From positions 806,001 through 870,000 of the forward strand of contig JALJCS010000018.1 of NCBI GenBank assembly GCA_023055355.1: DNA of 64,000 nt, read 5' to 3'. Within the stretch, counting starts at the first letter, position 1; each line of letters begins with the position of its first letter. Below the pieces are notes generated by a model. That model ran no database searches. It was not told the origin of the DNA and worked only from the letters and a program-made list of their open reading frames with translations. Below are positions 1,428-60,161 of the stretch, piece after piece. A program made the position numbers and the translations under genes. The stretch comes from Agelaius tricolor (taxonomy: Eukaryota; Chordata; Aves; Passeriformes; Icteridae).

Positions 1428-1547
1428 GAATGGAGACTATATTGTTCTAAGAACAACAAAGTGAGGTTAATGTGAAAATTTGCACTCCTTTGTGGGAAGA
1501 AATGTTCGTAAGAGCAAGTAAAAGCCTCAGTCCCCACATCACAGGAC
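1428..1547 (+). pseudogene. RANBP17: RANBP17 pseudo-exon candidate (EKIELAILWFLDQFRK region)
   Basis: By eye this stretch aligns with the human segment just before VYARMSEVLGI. A run resembling the codons for asparagine, EK, I and LW (aatgtgaaaattt, then ctttgtgg) is followed by cgtaag for RK. Five codons later comes CAG, which is the expected spacing to the next glutamine. The reading frame is disrupted: there is a net deletion between LW and FRK, and a TAA falls among the five codons. Boundaries are approximate and no clear donor is seen. The position, one short intron before the solid exon at 1736, is right. Confidence is moderate because nucleotide identity is patchy. Confidence 0.4.
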
Positions 1548-1735
1548 AACATAAGAGAGTAGATAAGCCATCTCCTACGAGTGCTGCAGCCTGCAAGGTC
1601 GTAGGTTGGATGTATAGGCACTTATGCCTGTGCTTTCCTCCTGCAGAGTCAAATTGGGGAAGGTTTTAGAGTAACTGAAAATGTTGAAGGTAGTTAGTAT
1701 CTATAGTATGTTACTGTTGAAATGTTAATTTCCAG

Positions 1736-1810
1736 GTGTATGCCAGGATGTCTGAAGTCTTGGGAATAAAAGGTGACAACCATGTTCTGGAAGCATTTAT
1801 GACCAAAAAT
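1736..1810 (+). pseudogene. RANBP17: RANBP17 exon, intact (VYARMSEVLGI)
   Basis: This is a complete 75-nt exon between a good acceptor (ttaatttccag) and a consensus donor (gtaagt). It translates as VYARMSEVLGI, then KGDNHVLEAFMTKN. About 21 of 25 residues equal human RANBP17 as I remember it, while XPO7 has clearly different residues here, so this exon fixes the paralog. It starts and ends in phase 0. It is the best preserved exon of the locus and shows no lesion, unlike most downstream exons. Confidence 0.85.
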
Positions 1811-2155
1811 GTAAGTTTGTGCTTGGGTTCTATTGTGTATGTTGTTTGTTTTGTCTTTAACATGCTGTCAAGTTTGCTCTTTGCTAGAAAAATGTTTTCT
1901 GTGAATTTGAACTATTTGAAATAAGGGACAACCATTTTTTGAAGGACCCATATCTTATTTTCTGAAGGTACTGCAAGCCTCTAAGTGAACAGTTGCAGCT
2001 CAGTATTTCCACCATAGTGCCTGTGTCCCCTCTCAAAATGGCTTATGTGGGGTAGAGCTGAGATGTCCCAGCCTCTTGTTCAATGACAAACTGGCACAAA
2101 CAGCCCCCATCCCTCCCTTCTCTTTCCTGCACCCTGTGTGGAATTGCCTGTAAAG

Positions 2156-2300
2156 TTTTGTGGCATTTCAAAGTGGGGAACTGACCGAAGCAAACTAATC
2201 TTCCGTTGTTTGGGAAAGTTTTCTTGGATTGATTTTTGTTCAAGATCTGGCAAATTTTGCTATCTTAAAAATGCAGGTTCACAGAGGAGGATCCTCAGGC
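2156..2300 (+). pseudogene. RANBP17: RANBP17 pseudo-exon candidate (NLKYWGR..ISRTLQF to MLKNHTSE)
   Basis: The frame reads FCGISKWGT, then KLIFRCLG, and further on FCYLKNAGS. Aligned with human VTNLKYWGR, VISRTLQF and KFMLKNHTS, it keeps WG, I.R.L, LKN and S in order. It carries one extra codon before ISR and about eight codons missing between the two halves. The upstream sequence gcctgtaaag could be a weak acceptor. It lies directly after the intact exon at 1736, as expected, and must be damaged if real because of the net deletion. It could be a chance match; the order and spacing argue otherwise. Confidence 0.45.
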
Positions 2301-4768
2301 CTCACACTGAAGGAGAAAAGAGGCATTATCATCACCTGTCTTCACATCTCTGGCATTTGCAGAATAACATAGTGTGTTATTTTGGCAGAGAAGTGCTGCA
2401 GTACTCTCTCTTAAGAATATTCCTGGACAATTACTCTGGAGAACATACTATTTCTCATGCCTCTGCTACAGCAGCTTTCCTTGGCTGCCAGCAAAATTAC
2501 CAGGATTTTGGTTTTTATTACGTATGGCCTTCATGATATTTACTAGTTTCTCCTGACACAAAAAGAGTTTCATCTAAAATAATTTTTTCTCTTGAAGCGA
2601 AACAAAATGATCCCTCTGAAAAACTGTGAATATACACAAAAAAATCTGGGAGTCCCCCAGGAGACAACATGGCCCATGTGTGCCTGGAGAAAGAGAAACA
2701 AGTGTCTGACCTCTTCATTTTGCAGTGAGGGAGATGCTGCATCTGGTCATTTGCTTCCTGTCCTCTCAATCTGACTTACAGGACCTTTGAACACTCCCAG
2801 GAAACCTTGGCCTGCTGGACACAGCTCTCTGCTGGTGTCACCAGGCTGGCTGTGACCTGCTGGGACAGTACTGATCAGGACTTGTAGTAATTAAAACAAG
2901 GTCATTTTCTGATACAACTTAAATATCTGTGGAACACAAGGCATAAACACTTCCTCAAACCGGAAGCCGAGTGTTGTATCTTGCCTTAGGATAACAACAG
3001 TACCCATCCAGCCCTGATATTTATCTGGAGCAGTCTTTGAAGACAGGTCAGTGGAGGGTGATGGATGGAAAAAGGCTGATGATGTTACTGTGGAGTTTTG
3101 GGAGGCAGCCCATGCCATGGAGCCTGATGGCTGGGCTGTGTTTGGTTGTTTCAAACTGCAGTGAACCTTGAACAGCTGAGGAAAAAGGAGGCAGAGGGCT
3201 CTTTTCTGGATACCATCAGTTTGCCTCTCTTGCTACTCATTGCTACCATTGAGGGGAATTCTCTGTTATGTTTGCCACTTGAAGGAATGGCATCCTTTTA
3301 CAAGTTGTATGAGCAGCCCTACATGTGTTTTGATAGGATAGGGTTGTGTTTGCACAATTACTGTAAATTAAGTTTTAAAAATTTAGTTTCTTCATGTTGA
3401 GTAGTTTAGTGTTAATGGGTTTTAGTGTTACATGGAAGATTTTAAAAGAAAACAAGGTACATAAAAAGCAAAAATCAGCAGTGCTTTTTAGATTACACAT
3501 TGTAGTTTTATTTCTCTTTCCTTGTGGCCTACTGTGTTTTCATAAAGCTCTGAGTTGTTAATTGATTAGATTGAAGATCGTATTTAACAGAATAGATGCT
3601 ACCACCTGACATGGACACTTCACTGAGTGGCTGTAAGAAGGAGCTGTGAATCCTAGATAAACATTGCTGTGTTTGTGGCAATGAGGGTCTTCTTCCCAGT
3701 GGTAGCATGCCAGGTGAAAATTCTGGGTGTGAAATCAGCATATTGATCTATATAATCCAAACCCAACGGTCTGATGGGGCAATCCAGTCTGGCAGCATTC
3801 CTGGTGCTCTGTTACTGGGAGTATTCTTAGCACATTTGTAGCAGCAGCAGGCAGAATCCCTGACTGGGAGCCCATTCACTTGTTCCTCCAGTGGATGGAG
3901 TGAGTGTTTTAACCACAGGTATTTTAGAAAGCCGCTCGTCTACTCTTCTGTCTTACCCCACAGATCCAGTTTTTCTTTCAGTAGGTGCCCACCTGCCTTG
4001 GTTCTTCCCTGCAGAGGTAAGAAAATGCTGGGACTGGAGGAGTTTTAGTTCCACCTGCTGCTTGAGCCTGGGCTGGAAGTGTCTTGTCATTATTTTGGCT
4101 GCAATCACCTTTCCTTTTCTTCCCTTACCCTTTGTGAACCTCTTCTGGGGTTTTTTTGGTTATTATCAAAATCACATGGAAATGATTTTTCATTAGGTGG
4201 ATTTACAAAATGTTTTCCCAAGTATTTCGTATTTCTGGTCATGATAAAATAAGTGAAACATGAATAAGAGGTGCATGTCCAAACATTGATGTGGGATGTC
4301 ACTGTGGTGAATGCAAATATGTGTCAATAGAGGGATTTTCCATGTTACAACTTTTCAGCGTGGATCTCTGAGTATTTTTTGGAACACTTACACTGAAATG
4401 GCTCCTTGAATCACAGCAAACAAAAATTCAGTACTTTTACTCATGATAGAACGTGCAGTTTTTAACTATTCACCTTTGTCCAGCTCTAATGAAAAGTATA
4501 TATCCCATTGCTGTCTGAGCCACCGAGAGCTTTCAGGGTAAGTGATGATAATCTGTCAGAAATAATTAAAACCTGACTGTACAGAGCTTTCTTGCCTCTG
4601 TGTTTTTACTGAAATTTCAGCACCACATAAAGAACAGATTTTCAGTGTCTTTTCAAGGGTTTTGGAAGCCCGTTTTTCTTTGCTCTGTAATGGGAATTGG
4701 ATAGCACATCCTTAAGCAAAAAAACTTTGAAAGTTTTTGTCTAAAATGTAGTTTTTTTCCATCTTTTC

Positions 4769-4782
4769 TGTAATGCATTACA
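4769..4782. repeat. 14-bp perfect palindrome
   Basis: TGTAATGCATTACA reads the same on both strands. It sits 18 bp before the larger palindrome at 4801 and shares its TGTAAT/ATTACA ends. Confidence 0.9.
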
Positions 4783-4800
4783 CTTCTGTAATGCAACTAC

Positions 4801-4835
4801 AGTTAAGGATATTACAATTTGTAATATCCTTAACT
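4801..4835. repeat. 35-bp near-perfect inverted repeat, 1-nt spacer
   Basis: The left arm AGTTAAGGATATTACAA (4801-4817) and the right arm TTGTAATATCCTTAACT (4819-4835) are exact reverse complements separated by a single T. The loop is too short for a microRNA precursor. Such a structure could form a cruciform or bind a dimeric factor. No function is established. Confidence 0.95.
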
Positions 4836-6389: not shown

Positions 6390-6577
6390 CACCTTGGGGC
6401 ACACCTGGCTCCTGGGGCAGCGGGCGCAGCACCACCCTGGCAGAGTCAAGGGGTGTTTGGACAATGCTCTCAGTCACGTGATGTGACTTTTGGGGCTGTT
6501 CTGTCCAGGGCTGGGAGTTGGACTCAGTGATCCCCGTGGTCCCTTCCAACTCAGCTGATTCTGTGATTCTGTGGGTT
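6390..6577 (+). mobile_element. CR1 LINE, 3' end
   Basis: The stretch contains the familiar avian CR1 tail: gggctgttctgtccagggc, gagttggactcagtgatcc and gtcccttccaactcag. It finishes in the family's terminal octamer repeats (gattctgtgattctgtggg). It is a 5'-truncated copy in + orientation, as is normal for CR1. Confidence 0.85.
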
Positions 6578-7423: not shown

Positions 7424-7444
7424 ATAAAAAAAAAAAAAAAAAAA
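7424..7444. repeat. poly(A) tract
   Basis: A run of about 20 A, preceded by gaagat and followed by caaaccc. There is no clear associated SINE or retrogene. Confidence 0.9.
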
Positions 7445-11996: not shown

Positions 11997-12139
11997 GTGA
12001 AGATGAGGATGAGTTTGAGAATTTCCTGCTCCCCCTCACAGTTTGATTTAAGGTTTGAATATCACTCAGATACTCAACAGTAGTTTTGAACAAGAAGAAA
12101 CAAAGGCAGGTTTATTTCTATTACAGGGGAAGAAACAAT
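11997..12139 (+). pseudogene. RANBP17: RANBP17 pseudo-exon (GEDEDEFENF..LPLTV)
   Basis: After the acceptor ttttcctgtag the frame reads EDEDEFENFLLPLTV and then stops at TGA (12044-12046), where family members have AFE. A different frame then resumes the match as QILNSSFEQEETKAGLFLL, against human QIFNNNFKQEDVKRMLIGL. The gap between LTV and QIL is 23 nt instead of 18, a 5-nt insertion. Total length is 143 nt against 138 expected, which accounts exactly for that insertion. The putative donor after position 12139 reads tgtgtgg, with a weak gt. Starting phase (2 nt, GT) and ending phase both agree with the neighbours. This is one of the clearest dead exons. Confidence 0.85.
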
Positions 12140-14320: not shown

Positions 14321-17300
14321 GGACTTTCTAACTGGCTAGGGTTTTTTTTTAGGTTTTTAATATTTCTGAAATACACCACTGAAAAACAGTTGTAACAAGA
14401 GAGATCTTTCTTTTTAAAATACATTTGTAATCATTATATCTGCATACTAAGCATATGGTTAGGTTTCTTTTTCAGGGATATCAAATGTAATTGAAGAAGT
14501 CATTATACATGTTGCTTTCCTTTTTTCTTTTTGCCTTTTTTTTTTTGTTGTTTTGTTTTGTTTCTTTCTTCTTCATGTTTTTATACTAATAGGAAAAATT
14601 TCCAGTATTAAAACAGTGCCTAATTTTCTCCTAAGAATGTCAAGATTTCTTCTGACAATGTGGGTAAGGAATCTATTGCTTGGGCAGTTAGAATCTCAGT
14701 AGTACTTTGTTTATAGTTGTGACATCCTCAGATTTGCTACAAATGCATGGAAAAGGGATCTGAAGAAAAGGCAGTTAAATAGCAACATGCTATCTTTAGC
14801 TGGTTTGTAGAAACTCCATGCTGTTAAATTATTTAAAATCGTTGATTTTCAGCTTGCACACATTAAAAGTTTTCACACTAAGTGCCAAATGTTGCAAACA
14901 GCACTTTAACAGAATGATTTTGCTTTGATCCCTGTAGCAGTTCCTGAATAATTTATCACAGGTTATTGCCTTAATTCTGGAGAGGGATAGAGCAATAAAG
15001 GCAGATGAAAACACTCCAGTTGAAACACCTTGGGGCCTGCTCATTCCTCTGACACGGCTCTTTTGTTGGAACTATTTAGAGGTTATTAAGATGTGTCTCC
15101 AGAATTAAGAGTATGCTGTAAGGATGAAGACAGCCATCTTAATTCTAAAGACAAAGCACAATGACCCTTCACCTTTTTTTTCCTTTGTTGTTATTATATA
15201 GTAGAATTATGAGGGTAATATTATAGCTGCACCCAGTAGTGCCACTATAGTTAAGGGTCTGTCAGACTTTCCATTACCAGCCCTGTTTTGGGGGTGGTGG
15301 GTGTGAGCATACTCATGTGTTTTAGATGGCCTCAGTCAGACACTTGGCACATGTTGGCAAGTCAGAGGGGCTTTTCTGGGAATATTTACATCTCCAGCTC
15401 CTTTCCCTTGAAAAAAAATCATTGAAAAATGGGCTTCAGGATTCTGAAACCAAGTACCTGAATTTATTTTAAAAATAGCTTTGTTATAATTAAATCTTAA
15501 GGAAACCTGTCAGTGACATTCAGGGAAGGATATTCTGAAACTGAAATCTGCACAAAATTGCCACATTATCGAGAAGAGGACTGTGTAAACCCCCAGAATG
15601 CTGACAAGCTCTTTTTGCTGGGCTTCCTGTATTTGCTGTTCTTTACTCCTCCTCTCACTCTTTGGCCACTGCTGGTGATGCCATTTGCTGTCCCATTGCC
15701 CCGGGAAGGGCTGGGATATAGCTGGGAAAGGAGCAGCAGCCTCAGCAATTCCTGCCATCACTGTGAAGTTTGCAGGGCACTCGGGATCCCACGGGATGGC
15801 ACACAAAAAGCAGATGTAAAAGTATGTAATCTTGTTTGTCATTAATACATTTTATGCACATAAGTGCTATTTGATTACTTACAGTGAACTAAAACTAGAT
15901 CCTCTTGGGATTTTAGGAGATTGGGGGATAGGTTCTTACTGAATGTGAGGTAAGCAAACATGGAATCTAGGGTGATTTTTGCTCCTATTAGAGTTTAAGG
16001 GTATTTTGTACCAATGACTTAAATGGATCAGGATTCATCTTGGGATTCTGGAGGCTGTTCTGTGGGCTGTTCATCTGGTGCTGGCTGTGGCAGTGTGATC
16101 TTACACAGCTGTGTTCTCATGGATCCTATCTGAATCACTGCTTTGCTGGGATTTTACAGAACAAGGATATTAAATCTAAATCTTAGATCTTGCAGATTGA
16201 GATCATTTATTAAGAAGTGTGGTTATGGGCTTTTTGATAACAATATCTCAATTTTAATAACAGAAAACAAAAAAATGTTGTTTATGTAGTAGTCATTGTT
16301 CTTTCACTGGAATTTGAGGTGTCTGAAGCTGCCAAGTGTTCGTGTAGGTTCCCAGAAACCTGGGGCTGCAGTTCAAAGAAAGTTGGGCATCTACTTTAAT
16401 TAATAGTTTTTAAAGTCTCACAGCCAAACTGTTTCTTAAATAGATTTGCAAAAGAGCATTTTCTTAAACTATTTTTTGTGGAGACAGAATAAACCTGGTG
16501 GTGGCCTGTGGGTTGGGCTGTCCTTTTCTAGCCCCATCCCACAAAGCCACACGAAGGGAGCTCTTTGTCCCCAGCAGTGCCTGAACAAAGATGAGTTCTT
16601 GTCTTTCCAGGGGCTGTGATGGCTCCCCTTCTCCCTTGCCCCAGACTTGCTTTGTGCAGCCTTGTTATCTCCTTCTTTTGTGGCTGGCATGGGCAAGGGA
16701 ACCAAAATCAGAGTGAACTATTTCCACTCCTTGTATCTGTTGCTGCATCCCTGGCTGCCTTCAGAGAGATGTATAAATAATTGCTGCCAAGTTCTTTTAA
16801 TTCTTGATGTTTTGGCCACCTTGTCTGCTGAACAGTGATTTTCTGTGCAGACAAAGCAGCACACCAAGTATGAAAATATAGATGACTATAAAGTTACAAT
16901 TTTATATTGCATCTTCTCAGTATTGAACACTTCCTCTCTAGTGATTTCAGAGTCCCATTAAAGTTAATGAGAGTGGAGACCTCTGAGCATCTTTGTGAGT
17001 TCAGGCCATTTCAATGCACAACAGAAAGGAAATGCAAATATTAAAATACTCCCAGCAACCTCAGTAGTCTTTGGTAAAGAACTCCATTTGTCCTGGGATA
17101 AATCTATGTCTATGCCGCCCAGGTCAGCCAGGCTGATGAGTCTGTATATGAAAAGTAGAAATTAGGCCTGGTCTGAGCTCACAGGGAGCAGTTTACAAGG
17201 CATCAGACATAATTTGTTCTTTATGTGATCAAGTAAAATGAATATGTAGCTCTTGTATTTGTCAACACTATAAATATTGCAGTGGTAGTACCAAGCAGTA

Positions 17301-23800: not shown

Positions 23801-24052
23801 GCAGTGCTGCCGTTGATTGGCAGGGCTGTGGCTGGACTTCATCTCCACCCCAGAGCAGAGCGGGCGCTGCATGGCCTGGAGGTGTGAAACCCTTCCTATA
23901 TATATATGTATATGTAAATCCATTTAATTGTACTCTGTAATCAGCAAATGTGTTTGTTTGCTTCTTTCTTTCTTTCTTTTAGAAGTGAATCCATTGCTGT
24001 GTTCAGCTCTGATGAAGATCTGAATATTTTTCTGTTATTTTTTAAATCACAG

Positions 24053-24126
24053 CATTTAAGTGTTGATGGATATCTCCAAACAGAATTCTTCCCTTCAGAG
24101 AAGCCAGTAAAGTGATGTGTCCATTG
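24053..24126 (+). pseudogene. RANBP17: RANBP17 pseudo-exon (RLNFDVSSPNGILLFREASK)
   Basis: The acceptor tttttaaatcacag leads into HLSVD in one frame. After a 1-nt deletion a second frame gives SPNRILPFREASKVMCPL. Human has RLNFDVSSPNG and ILLFREASKMICTY, so the match is near-continuous apart from the frameshift. Length is 74 nt against 75 expected, agreeing with one lost base between about 24068 and 24074. A good donor (gtaggt) follows. Position and phase fit the next pseudo-exon at 25630. A minisatellite begins about 220 bp downstream. Confidence 0.85.
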
Positions 24127-25629
24127 GTAGGTATTCATTAATGGTTCCTCTGCAGGGTAATCCTTTGCCTGGCATGTGATGTAAAAGTTCTATGAGTTGT
24201 TACTCTTGAGCAGGGCTGGATTTGGGGAATCCCCACCAGGACTGGGGAATCCCCAGGGAGTTGCTGCAGCCAGAGCCATCTTGGCAGTGCAGGGCTCAGG
24301 CCTCGGGAGCTCTTGGTCCCTGGCCTGGGGTTTGCTCCTGTGCCAGGGCTGCTCATGTCCCCTTTACCCCAGGGCTGCTCATGTCCCTTTACCCCAGGGC
24401 TGCTCATGTCCCCTTTACCCCAGGGCTGCTCATGTCCCTTTTACCCAAGGCTGCTCATGTCCCCTTTACCCCAGGGCTGCTCATGTCCCTTTACTCCAGG
24501 GCTGCTCATGTCCCCTCTACCCCAGGGCTGCTCATGTCCCCTTTACCCCAGGGCTGCTCATGTCCCCTTTACCCCAGGGCTGCTCATGTCCCTTTACTCC
24601 AGGGCTGCTGATGTCCCCTTTACCCCAGGGCTGCTCATGTCCCCTTTACCCCAGGGCTGCTCATGTCCCCTTTAACCCCAGGCACTCTGGCAGCTGCAGA
24701 TGTGTTCCAGATGTGTTCCAGCAAAGATGCACCTACTCATGAGGTGTTTGGTCCAGGCTGATTGATAGGTGTGGGATGATTTTATGGATTCAAATTATAT
24801 TCCAGCTCTTCCAAAACATAATAGGACCATAACAGCTCTACCCTAGAGCACTGTTAAAAGTGTTTATAATAAGTTGCTCCATTTTACTACTCCCACTCAT
24901 GCCTGCAACTGCAACAGGTCTCTGACACTAGCAGTTGGTATTACACCCCAACTGACATTGCAGATGATTTTGCTTTCTCAATATTTAGAAAGGAACATTA
25001 CCAAGTTTTTGTAGAGAAACCTCATTTGTAGTTTGTGTAAACTGGAAAAGCCATTAATGGCTTGTTTCATTTAAAGAAAGAAAATTGGCCCATCAAAGTT
25101 GCTTTTACTGCATTCATTCAGACTGATTTTTCGGTCTGGAAATTGTTTGTTACATGGCTGCCTTTATAAAAAACTTCAAATGTGATGTTGCATTTGATCT
25201 GTCAGACATGGAAACAGTATCTGTGCAATGCCTAAAGCATTTATTTGTAACAGAAAAAAAATTACACACAAGTAACTTTCAGTTTTTGCAAAATAATTTT
25301 TGTTTCTTTTGCAAATGTACTGTGTTGTAAGTGACCAAAATTTTTCAGCTGTGTTCTTAAGTAAATTTGTTAAAATGATTAAGCAAAATAAAAACAAGCT
25401 TTGAAAATGTGTGAAAGATAAAAGGCAAACCTTTAGCTGACCTAAAAAAATATAAAGTGTAGTCATGATGATGATTCAGCCCTATTTGTCTTATGGTATC
25501 TGATCCCAATGCAATCATATTTTCCTTTTTAATTTTTTATTTTAATTTATTTCCATCAGCCTTTACCATCCTTTCTGCACTTAGGAAAAACATAACCATA
25601 TTATTGGGCATCCATTCAGCTCAGTTGTT
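24127..25629. other. RANBP17 intron, 1.5 kb
   Basis: Short intron that contains the 27-bp minisatellite and otherwise unremarkable AT-rich sequence. Confidence 0.55.
24345..24690. repeat. 27/28-bp minisatellite, about 12 copies
   Basis: The unit is approximately cctttaccccagggctgctc plus atgtccc. Copies differ by one C and a few substitutions, such as the ctgatg variant near 24609. Overlapping frames of 120-181 codons through it are repeat translations. Confidence 0.95.
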
Positions 25630-34572: not shown

Positions 34573-34755
34573 CCCTTCCTTCCTTCCTTCCTTCCTTCCT
34601 TCCTTCCTTCCTTCCTTCCTTCCTTCCTTCCTTCCTTCCTTCCTTCCTTCCTTCCTTCCTTCCTTCCTTCCTTCCTTCCTTCCTTCCTTCCTTCCTTCCT
34701 TCCTTCCTTCCTTCCTTCCTTCCTTCCTTCCTCTCTCTTTCTTCCTTTCTTTCTT
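34573..34755. repeat. (TTCC)n microsatellite, about 40 copies
   Basis: An almost pure TTCC/GGAA run of about 158 bp (34573-34731), followed by a degenerate ctct/tttc tail. The Lys-Glu-Gly-Arg frame on the minus strand is a repeat translation. Confidence 0.97.
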
Positions 34756-36150
34756 AACATGTAATCAGATCCTCTCTCATGGGATCAAGTTCATCTGCTG
34801 AAAGTCAAGGGCATTTCCATCTGTTTCTCTCCACTCAAATCTGCCTTATGTGGAAATTATGTCAGCTTTGGTGTCTTCAAGTTGAACAGGGACGACCACT
34901 TTGACAATGTACTTCAGGCCTGTGTCAAAATGCTGTTTTCAGTATCCCACAGTGACCTGCTAGTAAGCAATTACTCATCTTGGGAGTTTTTATGTGAAAT
35001 ATGAAATAATACCACCACAGGCTTTGTATTGGTATAATGAGAGGGATCTAGAACAGCTCAAATGCAGTTTTCAGTTCTCTTATATGAATTTATTTATATA
35101 GTGACATCTGAAATACAGGTATGACTGAAGTGCCATGTGAAACAAGAGCTTTTTGAGAACTCCCGCTAGGCTTGTAAAAGAGAGAAATGCAATTTTTTTT
35201 TTCCATTTCTATACTTGCAAACCCATTTTGTTTCCTGCATGCACTGTAAAGCATCCTCATATATCCAGCTACTCTGCAATTAGTTTCAATCTGTGAATTG
35301 TCACTGCACTGTGTATTCCCCATAAACTGGGAAACTTTAAAATTAAAGTACACCATGTTCCCACTTCTCCACAGGAAAACAGCAGATCTTACATAATATC
35401 TGCCTGAATTCAAACTGTGACTTTTTCTTTGTGATACTTTCATTCAGAGCTGTCCTTGTCTTGTAGGAGGGGACAAATCCAGGGTAGTTAAAGATGGTAA
35501 CACTCACGTTTATTTTTGCTCATAAAGAAAGACATAAAGAAAGTCCATGGAAGTGGTAAGTTGCTCTCAGTTAAGTCAGTGTATGGTCTGTATAGTCAAA
35601 CATGCCTAATGGGAACATTCCCATATATCCAATGCTTAATTCCCTAAACAAGAATCCTTAAGAGGAAGATGATGGTTGGATTGGGCTGGTGGGCTCAAGC
35701 TGGGACCTGTGCCAGCACACAGCCTGTTAAAGGAGCTCATTTAGGCACAAAAACAAGCGTCTCTCTGAGGTGGCTTGGGTTGTGATAAATCTTGGTGAGG
35801 TGAGGTTTCCTGCAGAAGGCAAGACACAGCTGGAGTCCTGAACAGAGCCATCCCACTCTTCCTGGACTGGGAGCTGTGGCAGATAGCAAAGCACTCGAGT
35901 GGGTTTGGAATATCCTGAGCTTATTATTTTAAACTAATAGCAAGTTATATCCAATGGTAAATTTGAAAAGTTGAAATCTACTGAAGACAAGAGAATATTT
36001 TGTCTTTCAAAATATTCTGATTTATTGGCTAGTTTAGAATTTATCATCTCATCAAATCTGTAAGATCATTCTTGTGTCATCTATTAATACTGTTAATATT
36101 AGTCAATGGTAGTATCAGTATTTTCTATGAATGTGTACTCCTTTTTTCAG

Positions 36151-36297
36151 TAATATCCAAAACAAAGCCACTCTTATAACTCATTTTTTGAAGTGTCTCA
36201 CCCAGGATCATATGAGTTCCATTGCCTGTTTGCCTGTTTAGAAGTAACATCTTAGTCTGTATTCTGACCTCAGTATCTGAAGGACTCGCTGCAGTAG
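36151..36297 (+). pseudogene. RANBP17: RANBP17 pseudo-exon (QYRKLSQSYY..LTSISEGL)
   Basis: The acceptor cttttttcag is followed at once by TAA (36151-36153) where the family has CAA for Q. The frame then gives YPKQSHSYNSFFE (family YRKLSQSYYPLLE). One extra G (36193) shifts to CLTQDHMSSI, an exact match to CLTQDHMSFI but for one residue. An 8-bp tandem duplication (GCCTGTTT at 36224-36231 and 36232-36239) shifts again. LE appears next, then a 1-nt loss, then LTSVSEGLAAVD against human LTSISEGLTTLD. Length is 147 nt against 139 expected, exactly the sum of the indels. From the phase of the next exon, the donor position reads AT instead of GT (36298-36299). Confidence 0.9.
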
Positions 36298-37195: not shown

Positions 37196-37655
37196 TCGCT
37201 CTGCTAAATACACCCGGGCAGCACTTCGGGAGGGGATCCTGGGATCCTCTGTAAAATACACCCAGGCAGCACTTCGGGAGGGGATCCTGAGATCCTCTGC
37301 TAAATACACCCGGGCAGCACTTCGGGAGGGGATCCTGGGATCCTCTGTAAAATACACCCAGGCAGCACTTCGGGAGGGGATCCTGAGATCCTCTGCTAAA
37401 TACACCCGGGCAGCACTTCGGGAGGGGATCCTGGGATCCTCTGTAAAATACACCCGGGCAGCACTTCGGGAGGGGATCCTGGGATCCTCTGTAAAATACA
37501 CCCGGGCAGCACTTCGGGAGGGGATCCTGAGATCCTCTGCTAAATACACCCGGGCAGCACTTCGGGAGGGGATCCTGGGATCCTCTGTAAAATACACCCA
37601 GGCAGCACTTCGGGAGGGGATCCTCTGCTAAATACACCCGGGCAGCACTTGGGAG
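37196..37655. repeat. 48-bp minisatellite, about 9.5 copies, dimeric
   Basis: The unit reads tctgctaaatacacccgggc, then agcacttcgggaggggatcc, then tgggatcc. Two variants (ctaaat/ggg and gtaaaa/gag types) partly alternate, suggesting a 96-bp higher-order unit. Since 48 is divisible by 3 and stops are absent, frames stay open on both strands (up to 279 codons). These are not genes. Confidence 0.95.
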
Positions 37656-38268: not shown

Positions 38269-38377
38269 TAACAGCTCACTTTTTTTATCATAAGCCCTAG
38301 ATTTGCTTATCCAATGCTCTCCTTCAGTTCCTATCAATGTCCTTACAGCACAAAAAAAGAAGTACAAACATACAAGG

Positions 38378-38500
38378 CCAAAACACTGTGCAGTCTCCAT
38401 CCTTGGAGATATTCCCAAATACTGGAAAAAGTCCTGAGGGACCTGTCTGGTGCTGACCCTGGTTTTAAGAGGAGGTTGGATGGACAATGGTCTCATTTGG
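38378..38500 (+). mobile_element. CR1 LINE 3' region fragment
   Basis: gcagtctccatccttggaga, tattcccaaatactggaaaa and gtgctgaccctggttttaag correspond to the avian CR1 phrases for tctccatccttggagatatt and gaccctgctttgagcagg. The terminal octamers are missing or decayed. Confidence 0.7.
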
Positions 38501-39379
38501 TTTCTGCCTCCATCTTTAGGATCCCGCTGGTCTTTTTCACTTGTTTTCATGTTAGCTCCCCAAGACATGTTTTGGTTGTGTCCAAATGCCTGTGCTTACT
38601 TCCCATGATTAGTCAGCTGAAAAAGGCTTCATTTGTTTTAAATTTCCATGTTGCAGTGACAAACTGATTATTTTTCCTTAATATCATGTATCAAGAATTA
38701 ATATTCAAGTCAGCCATTAAATTCTTCATTTGTGTTAAAGAAATGTTATTTTCCATACTGCTGTAATGACATGTCCAGAAGAACTATTGGACAGTTTATG
38801 GCTCTTAATGTTGATTTGATTTTAATCATCGCAATAGTCTCACCTGTCACTGTATTTCCTAATTTTCTAAATGTTTTATCCCTTTTAAAATGTTGGTATT
38901 TGGGACATTATTAATTATCAGACAGTGAAATATAAATTTACGTCCTCTGTGTTATTTGGCCACCTACAACCTTGTGAGTAGATTCAAGCATTGCCTTTTT
39001 CACTGAATTGTATCAGTGCCACAAGAACATCTCAGAATAGTAGGGCTCAAGGCTATAAGCCATGTGAGGGGGAATTGTGTTTTAAACTGATTAGAACACA
39101 CAAGTCATTTTCAGAAATGTTTATATAAATTAAATAGCTGTCTTTTTTATTTTAAAAATTATATACAAGGAGATCACTTCTCTTTCACAGAAAAAAAGTA
39201 TGTGACATTTTTCTCCATTCTCTTTATGTATGTGAAACCTTTGAGACTATCATTGCAGTCAGGTGTAGGACAACCATTCCCCAAATTCTTTTTCCTGAGG
39301 AGTGCTCATTCTGATCCTGAGTAAATACCTTTCTTGATTCCCCACTTTATAAGGAATATGTATCCCTTCTGAGGCACCT

Positions 39380-39760
39380 CACTGCAAATCAGCTGTAACG
39401 GAAGCCCTCATCCCCGCTTTTATTGGGAGGATAAACACTGCAGCAGTTCCCTTCCAAAGTGTTTACCTGGCTTTCTCACAGCTGACTCAGTGGATCAGAG
39501 CCTTTTAAGGCAGTCTGCCTGGCATTTTGTCACTAATCTCTGAAAAGCTTTTCTAATTCTCATATGATTAATAGTATAGGATGCTATTCATTGAGGAAAA
39601 AGTAAAACATTTTTTTCTGTCTTGCTGCCTAATTTAGATGTTAAATTGCTAAATCCATTTACTTTCCAGCTTTAGTCTCAAAGGCAAATAATGCCAGTAT
39701 TGAACTACAAGCAGTTGACGGACAAAGAAAATACCACTTAACTCCCTCTCCTTGCCAAAC
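39380..39760. promoter_or_regulatory. Possible conserved non-coding element
   Basis: Repeat-free, mixed-composition block with gcttttattgggagg, ctgactcagtgg (AP-1-like TGACTCA) and catatgattaatag. Conservation is inferred from texture only. Confidence 0.25.
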
Positions 39761-42499
39761 CAAAATCTTTTAATTTGCAGAGATTCAGCAATGTCATTAA
39801 ACTACTGAAAAACAATTTCCTTCCAGCAGGTTGTTGTCATATTGCTGAGACCAAAAGGCATCATCAAGTCCTCTGAGGTCTTGATGTCTCTTCTAAAAAA
39901 CAATATAACCCATTCTAAGATACATGCTCAACCTGCAATTGAATGAGCTGATGGCTGATTGGAATTGCATACAGGAGGCAAAACCACACAGATAACAGAG
40001 AAGTGCAGGTAAGGCCCCAAATCTGAAATGAACACCGGCTAGCAAAGCAGAAACCCAAGGGACTGGTGACTGGTGCCACAGTTGCCATCCATGTCCTCGG
40101 CCGGTCCCTGTCCCCAGCTGGTCATCAGGGAGGTGCAGAGGGCTCCGTTTGCCTGACAAAGCTGCTGAAGTGCTGCTGCTCCCTGATGACACACCCAGAG
40201 CTGGAGGTGGTGCCTGTGTAACCATGACCTGCTCGCTTGGTGATCCAAATGATTTGTACACAGGGCATGGAGCTGAGTGGACCAGAAGTGAGAAGCATGG
40301 TTTGACTGCATTTTTCCTGATTATACCAAGATTTTTCTCTGTTTCCTTTGTAATTACATCTTTATTCTGTCTTCTCACCCATTTATCTGTCCATAGCCTA
40401 GAGCTGGTAGCTCCTCATTGCTCCTGTTTGTTCTATTTATTTGGTTGGCTTGTCTCACTAAGATTTAGTGAGAACATTGTTCTGCAAAGCACAGGGTTCC
40501 ACATGCCCAAAAGAGTCATTCAAGGGAGTTTGCTTGACACTCCCTGTCTGCAATCAAAAGGAAAAATGAGCATAGGGAAGCATATTTGATATATAGTTAT
40601 GGGCAAATTTAAGTAGCTCTTAACACTCCTATCAGATTCTCATGAGCAAATGATAGCGTAGACTGTCTGCTGTCCTGCTAAAATCACTTACTGTCGAGTG
40701 TAAAATACCTACTTGCACAGTATCAGCATGTTTAGAACTACTGCTGTTTTGTAAAGTGATGATAGTGATTTACTTTGTATTATTCAATTTAAAAAGAAAT
40801 AGAGTTAAGCACTGGTTAGGAAATACAGCAGAGCCCTCCTATGAAATATGTATTTTCAAATCTCTCACTTGTTGTTATTGATGGTGATTCAATTCCACCA
40901 TGCAATTGCATTGCATTTCTAGTTTATATGCAGGACTGTTTTGGTTGGGAATACAACAGTACCAGGTTCTGCGGCCTTGGCTTTGTTAACACTCACAGCT
41001 TTGGACTCAGCTCTGTTCCAGCAATGTCCTGCCCTCTTGTACCATTGAGTTCAGCCCTCAGAAGCTCATGGGTCCTGTGGAGACAGAGCTGAGAGGCTCC
41101 AGGTCATTTTTGTGAGCTGTTAGGTGACTCCCAGCTCCTGCTGCTGAGCCAGCTGGTTGCTTTGGAAGATCAAGCCTTAGGAGACCACTTCTCTGGCTAA
41201 ATGTCCATTTAGTGTTTCCTCCAAAACACCCTTAGCAAGATGCTGTTTAGATTTAGATTCTGAAGGGTTAATAGTGTCAGCACAGAGCTCAAGGAGTTAA
41301 ATAGACACAGATCAAAATACTCCAGTGTCTAGAGGGATGTGTTTAAATGAACACTGCAAGGTTGGCAGGCCTCCAAATTAGCATAGCTTAAAGAATTCAA
41401 GGTACATTTAATTGGATCCTTCTAATCCCTTTTCCCTTAGAATGAGCATTTTAACAGTTTAATTCCTTTTGCAACCCCCACATCCCTTACTCCAGTGGCC
41501 CATCTAAAATAAATACTGTGAACTATAAAAGGCCTAGAGAAGTTCTTGCTGAAGCTAGTGGCAACAGGATGTAGCCCTCAACACTCCACTCATTCGGATG
41601 GGATGCTTGGAATTGCAGAGGGTATCAGGGCTAAGCTTGGCACCCAGCAGGTTCAGCTGCTGCCTGCACAAGGAGCTTCAGGGGCTGTGTTGGGATGGAG
41701 TTGGCAGCTGTGGAACAAGGGTTACAGGGTGGGAACTGGAGGCAGCACAGGGGGCTGTGTCCGGGTGGCTAGGGAGTCCCTTGGGTGCCATCTCAAGGAG
41801 GTGGCAGTGGGCAGGGGATGACACTGACACTGCCAGAGCAAGGCAAGGGAAGAGTGCATGAGAACCACAGGCCAGGACACTGCTTTTAATGGATTTAATA
41901 CACTTTAGCCACTTCAATTACTCATTAGTGAGTGAACTGACTAACTGGCTGTTCGTGATGACCTTTTTACTGCCTTTAATGACCCTTGTTCAGTGTTTGG
42001 CACCTGACATGGACTATAAGCTCCTTGGGGCACAGAAACACTGGGAAACCCTTCTTGAGGAAAGCCTGGATAACAGCTCTATTGGGTTTAACCTTTTCTT
42101 CTCAGTAGGCAGATGAAACTAGAATTTTAGTTTCCAGGAATCCGCAGTCTTTTGAATGTGAAACTGAATACCAGTAAAATGTCAGCCCTCATCCTGCCAG
42201 AGGATGAGCAGCCAGTGTTCATACAGTGCTGAATGAGGCTTGCTGCAGTTACAGGATCCTTCATGTAGATATCCCACAACATGGTATAACATGAATAACC
42301 AGTTCCCCAACAGCAAAGGGGCCTTAGTAAAAGCAGTCTTCAAAGCTGCCCAGCCCCTCTGCCAAAACGAGACTGGGTGATTTATCATCTAGCCTAATGT
42401 CAAATAGATTAAACTTGAGCTCTCGAAGTACTGTGAAATGTCATTATTAGTTTTTGTTTTTATGGAAACAATTACAAAACTGTTTCATTTTTTACACAG

Positions 42500-42660
42500 A
42501 TACAATTGTCTCCTCCAGCTGCTGAGCTACTTTAGACTACATTGTCATCTGCTTCTTCAGGCACTAAAGACAAGAAGACTCTCACAGAGGTAGAGATATT
42601 TCACAGGATGGAGAGAGATTGCTCCACTTCATGCAGCAGAACCCAGAAGTTCTACACCAG
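42500..42660 (+). pseudogene. RANBP17: RANBP17 pseudo-exon (VSSSCCTSLDYIV..RLLHFMQQNP)
   Basis: After the acceptor ttttttacacag and 2 nt of a split codon the frame reads TIVSSSC, then TGA (42523-42525) replacing the second cysteine's TGC. ATLDYIVICFFRH follows, then TAA (42565-42567), and after a short variable part ERLLHFMQQNPEVLHQ with an intact donor (gtgaat). Human has TVVSSSCC, SLDYIVTYLFKHI and QRLLHFMQQNPDVLQQ. The frame is continuous, two codons shorter than human in the variable linker. The two nonsense codons are the only lesions seen. It is the best long match in the window. Confidence 0.92.
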
Positions 42661-43339
42661 GTGAATTCACAGCCTTTTCTATGGGGTATTACTATATTTC
42701 TGAATTCTCCTGGGTTTTGCGGTACTTAACATCACGTAGCAGTGGCTATTTAGTGACAGAACAAATGTCCCCACTCTGGGATGCAACCCCTGAGTAGCTT
42801 CAGCTGTGTTCTCATGACAACCAAGGACTGAAGGTATTTTTTGTCACACTGAACAGTGTAGGCCCTGTACTTGTCTGTACAGCATCTTACAACTGAGTGT
42901 TTCATTTTTGCTGATAAAAAAAATGTATGTGAGATCATCAATACATTTCTATAGACAAATGGGAAGAAAAGTCTCTAAAGTATTTTAGGAGGAAGAAGAA
43001 AAAATTCTGGCATTGAACTACACATTTTGGTAATGAAATGTGCAAACTGAATGTCTATATGCTGCCAAGTTTGAATATTTTATTTTACAGTAGATGACTC
43101 ACTGGAATTTTTTTCTATTAAAGGTAAATACAATAGAAATTAAATCTCATGCTTCTGAAAAGGAAGTGGCCTCTGTAGTGCTTAGGAGAGATTGCCCCTT
43201 CTCAACTCCCTCAGGTTTTCACAGCCCAAGTGCATTACAGAGAGACCAAGATGTTCATAGCTACAGATCTCCCCATGCCACATGCCCTTAAATTCTCACT
43301 AAACTATTTGGAAATGCTTATTTACAGGAATCTAATGCA

Positions 43340-44650
43340 GTGGCATTTAAGGAGGTGTGTTTCACAGGTCAGGAGGCTTTTAATCTAACTAAATGCAAAT
43401 GACGAGTGTGATCATTTGTGTTTCCCTGCTAGCTGGGCGTCATTTGTAAAAAGCCTGGCATGCAGTCACCAGTTGTTGTTGGCATTTGCTTGCTGTTCTA
43501 ATTGAAGGTGAAAAGGAACTAATGGTAGCTAATATAATCCTGGCACTAAATTCCAAGAATATTAATGGTGTTTATTATTGACATCATTACCAGAATAGGA
43601 TGATTCCCTTGTCATATTACAGGTTCTTATGTTTTACACGCCTGACAGGGGTTTCCTGGAAGCAGCAGTCAGCGTTTGGGGCTGTTGGATTACTCCACAC
43701 TGCACCTCACGTGCAGTGATTGAAGGGGCAGAGCAGCAGGCTGGTCCATTTATGGCAGTCCTGATGTAATACTTTGTCTGTTAATATGCAGTAATCTTTC
43801 ACTTTACAGCATATGACTAGGCAGCGATCTGTCTTTATTAACTTCAGATTCTGCGGAATACGTTATATTTATTTTGAATGCAGGCTTTCACATACTCTTT
43901 TAAATATTAATGGCTGGTCTCCAGCAGTCAGCATAAATATGATTTGCATTAGCACTAGTCATATCATATTGAGTGCCTTTGATGTCAACTATTCAGGGTA
44001 CTAATATCTGACATCATCTCCCGAGGTCACTGACAACTTTGACCTTTATTCTCATGCACAGTTTCTATGGTCTCAGAAGCTCTTTTGAATTGATTTGAAA
44101 TTTTGACTCTTCCCTTTATGAGGCAGTAAAATTGATAATTATTCAGATGGGAACTGAGTACTGAGCGAAAAATCAATTCCACCCGCTCTCTGCTGCGTAT
44201 AAAATTACTTCTGAGTCTGCCGGACTGAACGGATGGCCAAGGTAAAAGCAGCAGGCAGGAATAGTGGAGAGGATTAGCTGGACAAAACTAATAGCCTAAA
44301 GGGATGGCTTTGGAGATGAGGGAGTGTGTCGGTTGGGGGTTATTATTAGCAATGATGGGACTCATTGATCATATGTTTACATCAGGTTTCCATTGGGTTA
44401 TAAATCAGCCCTGAATAGAAGCGGAACCCAGGGCCTGGTGCACTACCGGGGGCACGGCGTATTAGATTATTCTCTCTTTCACACTCGGATGAAAAGTGAG
44501 ACATTGATTATTCATTGGCTGGCCATTAAACACTGGGTTTATGGACGATTTGACTATCATAGAAGCTAATGAACAAGATTGCTGCTTCCTAACCAGCGGT
44601 TTCAGTTTTCAGGACATCTGTTTGGTCTCAGTAATGCATAACCCTGTTAA
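43340..44650. promoter_or_regulatory. Putative developmental enhancer cluster
   Basis: About 1.3 kb of repeat-free sequence with unusually dense factor-like sites: ATGCAAAT (43393-43400) and its complement ATTTGCAT (43942-43949), which are POU octamers; many TAAT/ATTA homeodomain cores; catgcagtcacc; gcgtataaaatt (TATA-like, near 44195); and cattgattattcattggctg near 44500. It abuts a CpG island on its right. This texture is typical of deeply conserved non-coding elements around developmental transcription factors, plausibly serving TLX3. Conservation itself could not be measured. Confidence 0.5.
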
Positions 44651-45254
44651 GGAGCGGGTCACAGACGCTTAACGGCGCTGAAAACCTGCGGCCTGCTGCC
44701 AAACTGTGCTGCACTTTGGGGGTTTGGCGGCTCGGTACCTGCGCCGCTGGCGCGCCCCCTGCACAGTTCCCAGCCGGGGCTCGGGGCTGCCGTGAGGCTC
44801 CGGCGGCAGCCGGACAACGACCCGGCCCCGCTCAGGCCCCGCAGCGGCGCCGGTGTGCCCCGGGCCGTGCCGGGCTGCGCCGGGAACTCGGGTAGCGCCG
44901 GCCCCGCGCCCCCGCCCATCGTGCCCGGGGCAGGGCAGCGCCTCCGCCGGCCCGGCACAGCCCGGAACTGCCCGGCACAGCCCGGAGCTGCCCGGCACGG
45001 ACCGGCACAGCCCGGCACAGCCCGGAACTGCCCGGAACTGCCCGGGGTGGGGGCCGGGGCCGAGCGGCCGCCTCGCCGGAGGAGAAGGCGGCGGGCGGTA
45101 GGTGCGGGCCGGGCCCGCGGGCGGCGGGAGGGGCTGGGGCTGGGCAGGGGCGGTTCTGCGGGCCCGGGGCCCTCTCGCAACAGGAACCGCCGCCCGCCCG
45201 GCCGCGAGTGCGGGTGTCCCGCTGTCCTGTGGCATCACTATCATCATCATCATG

Positions 45255-45291
<37 letters not shown>

Positions 45292-45420
45292 CCATCACGC
45301 CCACGCTGCCCAGCGGGGCGGTCGCGGTGCGGCCGCTGCGGACAGCGCGGTGTGACGCGGCCCCGAGCAGCGGAGCTGTGGGATCGCCCCCCTCGATCCT
45401 ACCTTGATCCCTCACGTGTG
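44650..45420. promoter_or_regulatory. Orphan CpG island
   Basis: About 770 bp of very GC-rich sequence, dense in CpG and with short ccggcacagc/cccggaactg repeats (44950-45045). It lies within an intron of the pseudogene with no recognised first exon. Possible readings are a promoter of a non-coding transcript or a poised-enhancer island coupled to the block on its left. Long Ala/Arg/Pro-rich frames on both strands are composition artefacts. Confidence 0.7.
45233..45297. repeat. (ATC)n trinucleotide repeat
   Basis: About 20 near-perfect atc units, with one gatc interruption, inside the CpG island. They give runs of His, Ile or Met in shadow frames. Confidence 0.95.
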
Positions 45421-47449
45421 ACCCGCAGCAGCTCGGGGCTTTAATGGGTTGACGTGACTGTATGAAGAGGGAGCAATAGAGAACATGGAAGTGAAACAGC
45501 TCCGTAATGCTCAGGAGCAAATTTCGGCATCCCTGGGAAACTCAGCAGTGGCTGTTGGCTCTGGCCGGCTTTTGCCGTGCCCGGGCTCGTAGCCCCGGGC
45601 GAGCAGCCTGAGCTCCATCTGCATATATCCACTTGGTGAGGGGATCTTACAGCCACTCCGAATTAATGTGGGAAGTAATTTCAGATGTATGGGTAGAACA
45701 CGGTATTAAGTTTACTGCACTCACCTATTGATGTTATGTTCTGTTCTAAGCACTTTGATAAATAGTTTTTTAAAAAAAAGCTCCTACTTTGTAATTTTTC
45801 TCAAATTGAGACTTTTGGTACTTCACTTTATAAATGAAAGTGTAATTTTTGGTCTTAAGAAGCTACCTTTACCCTCTCTTAATGCTGATCTTGCTGAACT
45901 CTACACATTAGGCTGTTAGCTCAATTTTTGTGTCTTAAAATACTATTCCTTTTAGTTCTTTCCAAAAATTGATGAGTTTTGTAGCATCTTTCACCTGCAG
46001 TTCTAACAAATGTTTATGAACAAGGCACAATAGGTAAAGAATTCTTGATTGCATCTCTGAAATGATTCTGTGCTGGCTGCAGAGGGGATAAATGGATGGT
46101 TGGTTGAATAGAAACAGGATTTCAGTGGCATTCCAGTATTCACTTTCTTTCCTGGGTGTTTCCTGGGCAGGGATGTAAAGTACAGCTAGGCCAAGTGAGG
46201 GTCAGCAGTGCCAGTGGTTACTTGCTGTGCATCATTTTCAGGAAGATCATGTGGACAGTGAACTGGGTTTTTGATGAGACTGAGCACTGCAGCAGTGTTT
46301 GGGTTCCCCCTGGCCATGGGCAGGGTTGCTCCATGTCTCAGCCCCAGCGCTGGCAGAGAGGTGCTTTGGGGCTGGGTCTGTGGGTTGAGGCTGTGCTCCA
46401 GGGTTCAGCATTTCAGGGGACAACAGGTGAGCAGTGCTGGAGGAGGGGATGGTTGGCAGGGACATGGGAAGAGCCAGCATTCCCTGCCAGAGGAGAATCT
46501 GGTGGAATACAAGGGCTGGAGAGGGACCTCTGGACAGGAGTGTCGCAGTAGGTAAGAGGGAAGGTATGCAGGTGAACAAAGACCAGAGCCTGGAGCCAGG
46601 AGCCAGAACGGGATGGGAGGTCCTGGGGAGGAAGAGGGGGTGAGGTCTTGAGGAACTTGCCTGGGCTGCCCAGTGACCAAGGACCCAGTGATGGGAGGCA
46701 CCAAGTGAAGCGGCACAACAGGCACTGCCTGGAAAGTGGAAACCAGAAAGCAGAGGTGCCAGTAGCAATGAAAAATCAAGTGGCATTACTACAACGAGAA
46801 AGTATTATAAATTGGAACTTTCCTTCTTTCCCTTTTATATAGTGAAATAAGTGATGTTTTTGTTTTTCAGATAAAGCTCAGTGCTGTATACAGCTAGTGT
46901 GGAGTTATGCACAGTAATAGAGATAAAAACCTGCAGTGGAGCTGTGTTTATAACACGTACTTCATGGCCCAGGCAGCAGCACTTACACATAAGCACATCA
47001 CAAAGAAATCTAATTGGCATTGGCAGAGGGTACTGGTGTGCAAGATGTTGAGTGCCTAAGACCCTCACTCATATTTGTGAGCATATACTTCATCTTAAGA
47101 GCAGATCAAACCCACAGGTGTGATTGTTCCTATGCTTAAAATCAAATGTGTTTAAAGGCTCAGCTGAATCAGGATGAGGGTGCTCAGCGTTTGCTGGCTC
47201 AAGGCTTGAAAGTTTTGATAAAATAGTGAGAAGGATTTTCCCTGGGACATCTGTTTCAGCCTCTTAGCCCAATTTAAAAATGTTATCCAATACTACCATA
47301 ACTTTCTTTATTAATTGAAAGGGATGGGGATATACCAGCTGTAGCCAAGCCAGCAGAGATTTGGGTGGCTAAGCAACAGAAAAGACATCATATTGAGTGA
47401 GCCAAAATTCAGTCTCAAAGTCATTTACTTTAACCAGTGACAATACATT

Positions 47450-55200: not shown

Positions 55201-55401
55201 TTTCTATCTGTCTTCAGCTGGTAGTTTTGGTTATAGAAATATTTGTTTGGAAGAAGGACTTTTGTAATTCCAAGTTCATACAGGAAACATCAGTGATTTA
55301 ATCAGGATTAGTAAAGGTTTCATGCATTTTTCCTTCTCAGCACATCACACAGCTTAACAACAGCATCCATGTTCATGTAAACTGTCTGAATTTTCTTTCA
55401 G

Positions 55402-55500
55402 GTGATGTCAGTCCTAATGAACACCATCATCTTTGGACACTGAAGAAACCAATGGCCTGTGTCAAGACTGTTGCTTAGACTCACACTTCTTAATGAGAAA
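55402..55500 (+). pseudogene. RANBP17: RANBP17 pseudo-exon (MMSVLMNTIVFEDCRNQW..LLNEK)
   Basis: The acceptor ttttctttcag is followed in phase 0, as expected from the exon at 42500, by VMSVLMNTIIF. GH comes next, then TGA (55441-55443) at the TGC cysteine codon of the family's EDC. The same frame continues as RNQWPVSRLLLRLTLLNEK, against human RNQWSVSRPLLGLILLNEK. The match fades after AAA at 55500, where gcgaat stands at the likely donor. A further in-frame TAG follows at 55510. Substitutions at conserved P, G and I positions add to the picture of relaxed constraint. Confidence 0.92.
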
Positions 55501-55665
55501 GCGAATGTTTAGGAAATTCCACCCGATCACATGCCAAAATAGTAAAAATAATTACTACACATAGAACAGAGCTGCCTGTTGCACTTTCAGTTGCCATCTC
55601 TGTCCCTGGTCCTTGCTCCATTATGCTCATGTTAGGAATGAAGAGTGGATTTCAGCCCATGCACT

Positions 55666-55703
55666 CTGTAAGCCTCTTACAGATCTGTAAGCCTCTTACA
55701 GAT
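55666..55703. repeat. 19-bp tandem duplication with palindromic core
   Basis: ctgtaagcctcttacagat occurs twice without spacer (55666-55684 and 55685-55703). Each copy contains TGTAAG-cct-CTTACA inverted arms. Confidence 0.95.
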
Positions 55704-58700: not shown

Positions 58701-59432
58701 TTCTGCTTTAAGTAGCCTATAACTGTGCCAGAATATGATGGGAAGAGAAATACAGGAAGTGATGCAGATGCCTGAGCTTCCCAAGAGCCCAGAGCAGATG
58801 GCCCAAACTGGCACCACCCTAAAAAGGCTTGAGAAGTACTCGAGGATGCTGCTGCCACCTCTCCAGGGTGAGTTGGAGCTGGTTAGGGGCCAACACCCAC
58901 TGCTGGTCCCACTTCACCTCAGCCCTGGTGGCTGTTAGTTTTTCTGTGAAGCAGGAGGCTCATTTTAACTGCAAATGCTTAAAATTGAGCAGAAATCAAT
59001 TTCCATTAGTAAGAATATAAGCACAATCATTAAAAAATAGGACTAGGATAAAGAATAACTTTCTAATTGCATCCTGTACCTCCACACAAGCCCCAGCTCA
59101 CCCCACTGCTCCAGACATCCCCATGCAGTGGAGGCAGGCAGGATTATTGCCTCTGATCTGGCAAAGAGACCTTTGCTGAGATCCCATCAGTTTGCAGGCA
59201 CCTGTCCCCACAGTCCTGTGCAGGAAGGAGCCCTCAGGAGCTGTTTTGGGGAGACTTTATTAGCTTGGCTGTTGTGAGCCAGCAAAGCCTGACACAATCA
59301 CAGCAAAGAGCATAGAGGCAACAGACAAAGAACATTTGAAAAACTCTAAATGTGGAGTGCAGACACATCTGGTACTTTAAATCGTTTCTGTGTGGGTTTT
59401 GGATTGTTTTGGTGTTTCGGTTTTGAAAAAAT

Positions 59433-59540
59433 AGAATCATAGAATGGTTTGGGTTGGAAGGGACCTTAAAGATCAGCCAGTTCCAGCCCCATTGCCGTGG
59501 GCAGGAACATCTGACCAAACACACAGATTTGGGTTGGGAC
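59433..59540 (-). mobile_element. CR1 LINE 3' end
   Basis: agaatcatagaatggtttgg, then gttggaagggaccttaaaga and ccattgccgtgggcagg is the inverted 3' end of avian CR1. It is the least diverged copy in the window and the clearest indication of a bird genome. Confidence 0.9.
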
Positions 59541-60076
59541 AAACAGCAGTCAAGGTGCTCATTCCAGGGGAGGAGTTCATGTCTGGGCTCTGAGGTGTCC
59601 TTCAGTCTCAGGTGATGTTAGCAGACAGATTTCACACCCCACCCCCCAGGTGGTGAGCTGCTGGGGGGTTTGTGTGTTTGTGCTGTGCCAGAGGGGTCTG
59701 GTCCCACCTTTCAGCAGCCAGGCTGGACTCTGGCATCTTCCAGAGGGGGGAAGGTGGGGCTGGCCTCCATGGCACATCCCAAGGAGCCCTTTGCTGCAGG
59801 CTGGGGAGGAAGGACATTTCTCAGCCATGTGAGGTGGGAAAGCTTCTGGCTGCAGTCATTTCTCTGCTGGCTCTCAAATGTTTCACACGTTGCTATGCCC
59901 AGACTTTCATGTCATAGAACTGGCTTTTGAGGACACCTGGTGATTCTGTTGGTGAGTCTTCCTCTGGTTTTCCCTCAATTTAATACACATTATAGTTTCT
60001 ATTTTTACCATCTCTCACAATGTATCTCCCACAGTAAGGTCTCCTTTAACCAAATGTTTGGTGTCTGCTTTTCCAG

Positions 60077-60161
60077 GTCACTCAGAGCATGCTGGAGAGA
60101 TGTGGCCAAAGCTCTGCAGTGCAAAGGGGCCTCCAATCCCAAGGGTGTGGATATGATTTGA
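60077..60161 (+). pseudogene. RANBP17: RANBP17 terminal exon, diverged but open
   Basis: The acceptor ctgcttttccag is followed by G, which completes the CAG of FTQ, then SLRACWRDVAKALQ and, near the end, GVDMI with a TGA stop (60159-60161). Human ends NLSVFRRDVAEALR and then LDMMS. RDVA.AL and DM recur, with the same total length to within one residue. No nonsense or frameshift is visible, yet conserved residues (F, R) are replaced by C and W. The stop marks the 3' end of the RANBP17 reading frame. Confidence 0.75.

Follow-up and report, generated by a model that had tools for sequence, protein, structure and literature searches.

The window, that is, the whole 64,000-nucleotide stretch of Agelaius tricolor DNA analysed here, is best explained as the dead 3' half of the orthologous passerine RANBP17 locus, probably inactivated once before the corvoid–sylvioid split, and this reading is given a probability of about 0.84. 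A single inactivation would have taken place after passerines and parrots separated and before corvoid and sylvioid songbirds did, and the locus would later have drifted, with each lineage adding lesions of its own. The pseudogene is real and probably old, and it is likely to be "unitary". We further infer that no intact copy exists elsewhere, that the 5' half is lost as well, when the loss occurred, and that XPO7 may cover for the missing receptor.

Remnants of RANBP17 and their lesions

A chain of plus-strand matches in protein order, which begins at position 1733 (residue 570) and ends at 60158 (residue 1087), was obtained by tblastn with the RANBP17 proteins of the razorbill Alca torda (P0120), the green turtle (P0078) and the alligator (P0095), and the same plus-strand chain was returned by tblastn with a human RANBP17 query of approximate sequence. 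Splice signals delimit eight collinear exon remnants that cover RANBP17 residues from about 571 to 1087 (numbering of the turtle protein P0078):

1736–1810, plus strand: exon remnant, residues 571–595; acceptor and GTAAGT donor intact, no stop
11997–12105, plus strand: exon remnant, residues about 680–714; TGA at S696 (12044), frameshift at about 12053–12060, donor GC
24044–24126, plus strand: exon remnant, residues about 780–807; one frameshift, acceptor unrecognisable, donor GTAGGT kept
34763–34962, plus strand: exon remnant, residues about 809–879; 13-base loss near the 5' end, acceptor unrecognisable, donor kept
36151–36297, plus strand: exon remnant, residues 881–926; two frameshifts, TAG at 36239, TAA at 36245, TAA at the exon start, donor AT
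42500–42660, plus strand: exon remnant, residues 926–980; TGA at C934, TAA at 948 after a deletion, both splice sites kept
55402–55500, plus strand: exon remnant, residues about 982–1014; TGA at C995, acceptor kept, donor GC
60077–60161, plus strand: remnant of the last coding exon, residues 1058–1087; 8-base loss between residues 1062 and 1066

In a frameshift-tolerant alignment the remnant segments scored 62–255, while the controls for each segment reached 25–34 (best of eight shuffles) and 18–41 (reverse complement). The ordered RANBP17-like exons described in the first-pass annotation are thus recovered by two methods as eight collinear plus-strand remnants. The start that it placed at 1428 did not hold, as no exon is supported there and the first one found lies at 1736–1810; residues 505–572, searched for in 800–1760, scored only 23, below both the mean of the shuffles (25.9) and the reverse complement (35), and this candidate was rejected. 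The best kept remnant is the one at 34763–34962, in which residues 817–879 (63 codons at 34774–34962, the longest remnant) contain no stop, with 82.5% identity over 63 amino acids in tblastn (E 1.5e-24 to 1.9e-24). The remnant at 42500–42660 matches razorbill and parrot RANBP17 at 66–68% over 59 amino acids (E 1.1e-16 to 2.6e-15), and that at 1736–1810 matches Alca torda P0120 at 78.6% over 28 amino acids (tblastn, E 3.9e-7). For the last exon, the frameshift-tolerant alignment offered an ungapped reading from 60069, whose start would precede the acceptor; preference is given to a reading that starts at the acceptor (60077) and includes an 8-base loss, since this recovers residues TQ-M and agrees with the blue jay model described below.

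The six in-frame stops lie in four exons (TGA 12044, TAG 36239, TAA 36245, TGA 42523, TAA 42565 and TGA 55441). One of them, TAA 36245, sits at a placed frameshift, so that its frame depends on that placement, and TAA 42565 comes directly after a deletion; an additional TAA follows immediately after the acceptor at 36151. Six exons carry frameshifts, three of them detected by the aligner (one frameshift in 11997–12105, one in 24044–24126 and two in 36151–36297) and three read by hand from the sequence, namely the 13-base loss at about 34772 in the remnant 34763–34962, a deletion near 42565, almost made up for farther downstream (net 6 bases, which appears as a two-codon gap in the frameshift-tolerant alignment) and the 8-base loss at 60092 in the last exon. 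The six stops and several frameshifts previously claimed therefore stand, with a correction to their spread over "at least five exons": stops occur in four, and stops or frameshifts in seven of the eight.

Splice signals have decayed in part. Acceptors are kept at six of the eight exons and are unrecognisable before 24044 and 34763, and four donors are retained (GTAAGT after 1810, GTAGGT after 24126, GTAAGC after 34962 and GTGAAT after 42660), while three of seven are no longer GT, reading GC after 12105 and 55500 and AT after 36297. GC donors can be functional. A (CCTT)45 repeat at 34574–34755 ends less than 10 bases from the remnant start at 34763, and it may have contributed to destroying the acceptor of that exon.

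Three stretches of the protein (residues 598–673, 715–779 and 1015–1056) gave no match above the best shuffle when the whole collinear intervals were searched with eight overlapping queries, and these exons, whose absence the first-pass annotation had not noted, have therefore been deleted or have decayed beyond recognition. Two candidates were dropped, residues 736–749 at 16099–16140, whose score of 39 lay below the best shuffle (41), and a minus-strand match of 39655–39873 to residues 687–759, taken as chance (E 0.08–2.3). With its stops, frameshifts and missing exons, the locus cannot give rise to a full-length receptor and, once the lost splice sites are added, the claim of a RANBP17 pseudogene is well supported.

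Protein constraint is relaxed at the remnants. In fact, with stops counted and over 266 aligned codons, the window is altered at 43 of 184 residues that are invariant in 13 intact tetrapod RANBP17 proteins (eight birds, a turtle, an alligator, a tegu lizard, a monkey and an opossum, the razorbill model being labelled low quality by its source), whereas each of the 13, compared with the other 12, differs at 0–6 of 184–190 invariant residues; the tally leaves out the last exon and residues 780–788 and 948–956. Among the passerine models introduced below, invariant residues are changed at 9 of 46 positions in the wrentit and at 5 of 42 in the blue jay, which shows less decay than the window.

As to the remaining content of the window, no Rfam family matched at gathering score, no Pfam family was found in the 10 examined of 72 open reading frames of at least 100 amino acids, and among solved structures no sequence relative was found for the 63-residue remnant at E 1e-3, nor for P0078 at E 1e-20. 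Minisatellites with units of 23, 26 and 48 bases, in 9 to 26 copies matching at 85–93%, occupy 107–748, 24343–24682 and 37199–37624.

Orthology of the locus and the models of two other songbirds

The paralogue XPO7, in an approximate sequence, matches collinearly by tblastn at five of the remnants and scores below RANBP17 at all of them (RANBP17 against XPO7, 40–47 and 27, 39–40 and 35, 100–102 and 82, 69–77 and 46, and 48.5 and 40 bits), the margin being small at the second. The identity of XPO7 to the window is 65% at 34774–34962, compared with 82.5% for RANBP17, and 37% at 42499–42669, compared with 63–68%. The RANBP17 proteins of other birds, turtles and crocodilians (P0120, P0122, P0078 and P0095) show the same residue order and 63–83% identity over the three best remnants; these are long models of 1061–1238 residues, in contrast to the window with its six in-frame stops, frameshifts and missing exons. 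Furthermore, introns are retained, and the copy in the window is therefore not a processed pseudogene. In the chicken, Ranbp17 has been placed in one group with Tlx3 and Npm1, on chromosome 13 (PMC2446394); an approximate TLX3 piece found no convincing match in the window, which reaches only 3.8 kb beyond the last exon.

A protein collection was searched with the exon translations of the window, X standing at each stop, and 44 proteins were returned, 17 of them in rows without an organism name. The passerines among the organism-named rows are two, the blue jay (P0199, Corvoidea) and the wrentit (P0198, Sylvioidea), and both models are broken RANBP17 remnants. The blue jay model, of 196 residues, is named ran-binding protein 17. 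Its residues 89–127 and 124–157 match the remnants of residues 926–980 and 982–1014, and the model jumps from residue 1014 straight to 1058, as expected from the missing stretch 1015–1056 of the window. Residues 157–191 then match 60074–60178 in frame +2 throughout (77% over 35 residues, E 7.4e-12), while the RANBP17 register from residue 1066 onward lies in frame +3 of the window. In both the window and the jay, the last exon thus has VTQ(N/S)M in the RANBP17 register, followed by a downstream reading that is out of frame; since the jay exon reads in the shifted frame of the window, the same 8-base loss is placed in both genomes. Moreover, part of the jay model corresponds to intron sequence of the window:

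38560–38661, plus strand: intron of the window, coding in the jay model (residues 55–88); 76.5% over 34 amino acids, E 8.2e-11

This segment is collinear between the remnants of residues 881–926 and 926–980, which supports the orthology of the locus. In all, the blue jay model has in common with the window, and in the same order, three of the exon remnants, a segment of intron and a frameshift, and the two represent the same locus. The intron segment is included in a 131-codon open frame (38272–38667), for which no Pfam family was found and which may be a repeat or an adopted exon.

The wrentit model, of 199 residues, holds RANBP17 residues 570–594 and 933–994 and ends just before C995, which is a TGA codon in the window (55441). 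From this protein end alone, we infer that the wrentit stop would be the same base change. Other lesions are unshared: the jay retains C995, the TAA at 948 is absent from both jay and wrentit, and position 934 is F in the wrentit and a stop in the window, the jay model not reaching it. Derived residues agree with this nesting of lesions, E993G being present in window, jay and wrentit, T590A, S936T and L944F in window and wrentit, and M982V and I1009T in window and jay; in the simplest history the window is nearer to the wrentit. Given the damage common to the three birds, RANBP17 probably died before the corvoid–sylvioid split, the shared lesions being read from the protein models of jay and wrentit and not from their DNA. 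By the same two models, the sequence of the window is in itself very probably that of a passerine.

The first-pass annotation had proposed looking for the same lesions in related species; one frameshift does recur in the jay model, and the wrentit model ends at the position of one of the stops. Because of these recurrences, assembly or sequencing error as the source of the lesions, which had been called unlikely, becomes very unlikely, with next to no probability left to it; the window contains no N, and lesions of several kinds are distributed across 48 kb, from 12044 to 60092.

The window covers residues 571 onward only, which leaves room for a truncated gene in which decay is confined to the 3' half, and the 5' half, encoding the RanGTP-binding N-terminus, survives and yields a short protein. 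This is quite improbable, given that the jay and wrentit models have no significant match to RANBP17 before residue 570 (best E 0.035) and that the exon for residues 571–595 has diverged in the wrentit too.

That two passerine models exist at all means that part of the locus may still be transcribed. The decayed locus might even have been reused for a short lineage-specific protein or a non-coding RNA, a proposal that overlaps the preferred one, with the receptor still dead. The models join RANBP17 remnants with other sequence, splice sites survive around several exons and a CpG-rich stretch lies at 44.5–45.5 kb, but the two models are unlike in structure, and the window has stops in two of the four stretches matched by the jay model and in one of the three matched by the wrentit model, so that only a slight chance is given to reuse. 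The CpG-rich stretch (44501–45500) has a GC content of 0.66–0.69, a CpG observed/expected ratio of 0.88–0.89 and 101 CpG, and it holds GC-rich tandem repeats and an (ATC)17 run; it is situated in the intron between the remnants of residues 926–980 and 982–1014 and, from its sequence, an orphan promoter is possible.

RANBP17 in other vertebrates

RANBP17 models were found from newts to mammals. The 120 listed of 1668 matches include at least 23 named bird species, two of which are parrots. Parrots are the sister order to passerines. No passerine is named among these 120 matches. This absence is weak evidence alone because each protein cluster, built at 90% identity, is listed under a single name and may contain as many as hundreds of proteins (347 in P0078), among which an intact RANBP17 of a passerine could be hidden. 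Two of the 23 bird models, those of Alca torda (P0120) and Guaruba guarouba (P0130), carry a low-quality label from their source, and RANBP17 may therefore be damaged, or affected by assembly faults, outside passerines as well. Turkey RANBP17 is listed among genes differentially expressed in muscle satellite cells (PMC5714890). A further match, P0176 from Platysternon megacephalum (368 amino acids), is named transcription factor nrf2; its residues 85–368 are 98.9% identical to residues 805–1088 of green turtle RANBP17 and, judging from this identity, the name is wrong for most of the protein.

An intact passerine gene could also accompany the pseudogene if the window held a dead duplicate and the working RANBP17 lay at another place in the genome or on the germline-restricted chromosome of passerines, which somatic assemblies lack. 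This is unlikely: the remnants still have their introns and stand in the order of the gene, each of the two named passerine models is itself a RANBP17 remnant, that of the jay also matching an intron of this very locus, and the matches listed name no passerine.

Function, sperm and significance of the loss

The cellular role of RANBP17 is still called ill defined (PMC9290296). Its knockdown is reported to make mouse stem cells differentiate (PMC7145948) and to have slowed growth in most of the human cancer cell lines tested. If all passerines live without RANBP17, they constitute a natural knockout, and the receptor would be one that a vertebrate can do without; its function could then be tested by comparing XPO7, SPEM1 and the structure of spermatids between lineages on either side of the loss. 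Because the lesions are nested, there is also a prospect of dating the death of the gene within songbirds. Over half of all living bird species are passerines. As an event, gene loss is nothing out of the ordinary; the identity of the gene and the possible breadth of its loss are a modest surprise.

The 2011 study of SPEM1 and RANBP17 at the manchette was reportedly carried out in mouse. In reviews, RANBP17 is reported to bind SPEM1 at the manchette, a sheath of microtubules that gives the sperm head its shape (PMC8812575, PMC7279445). Passerine sperm are described as differing from those of other birds in their spiral head and short nucleus and in lacking a perforatorium, a proximal centriole and an annulus (PMC8812575), and a germline-restricted chromosome has been found in all studied passerines (PMC13231051). 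It is conceivable, though decidedly unlikely, that a single loss of RANBP17 on the stem of the passerines went along with a remodelling of their spermatids, or that a copy on the germline-restricted chromosome took over its role in the germline. In the first case, losing a transport receptor linked to the manchette would have either caused the remodelling or resulted from it. The two events may lie on nearby branches, which is a single coincidence on the tree and no proof, and the germline-restricted chromosome could offer a second route for a testis gene to vanish from the somatic genome.

No report of RANBP17 loss in birds was found in the titles and abstract beginnings of the open-licence literature, and RANBP17 does not occur in the listed papers on passerine gene loss or the germline-restricted chromosome. 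Losses of ghrelin and of a putative magnetoreceptor have been reported in passerines, in the parts of the sources available (PMC11919490, PMC10846946), and are likewise cases of a vertebrate gene lost within this order; unlike ghrelin or the putative magnetoreceptor, RANBP17 is a nuclear transport receptor.
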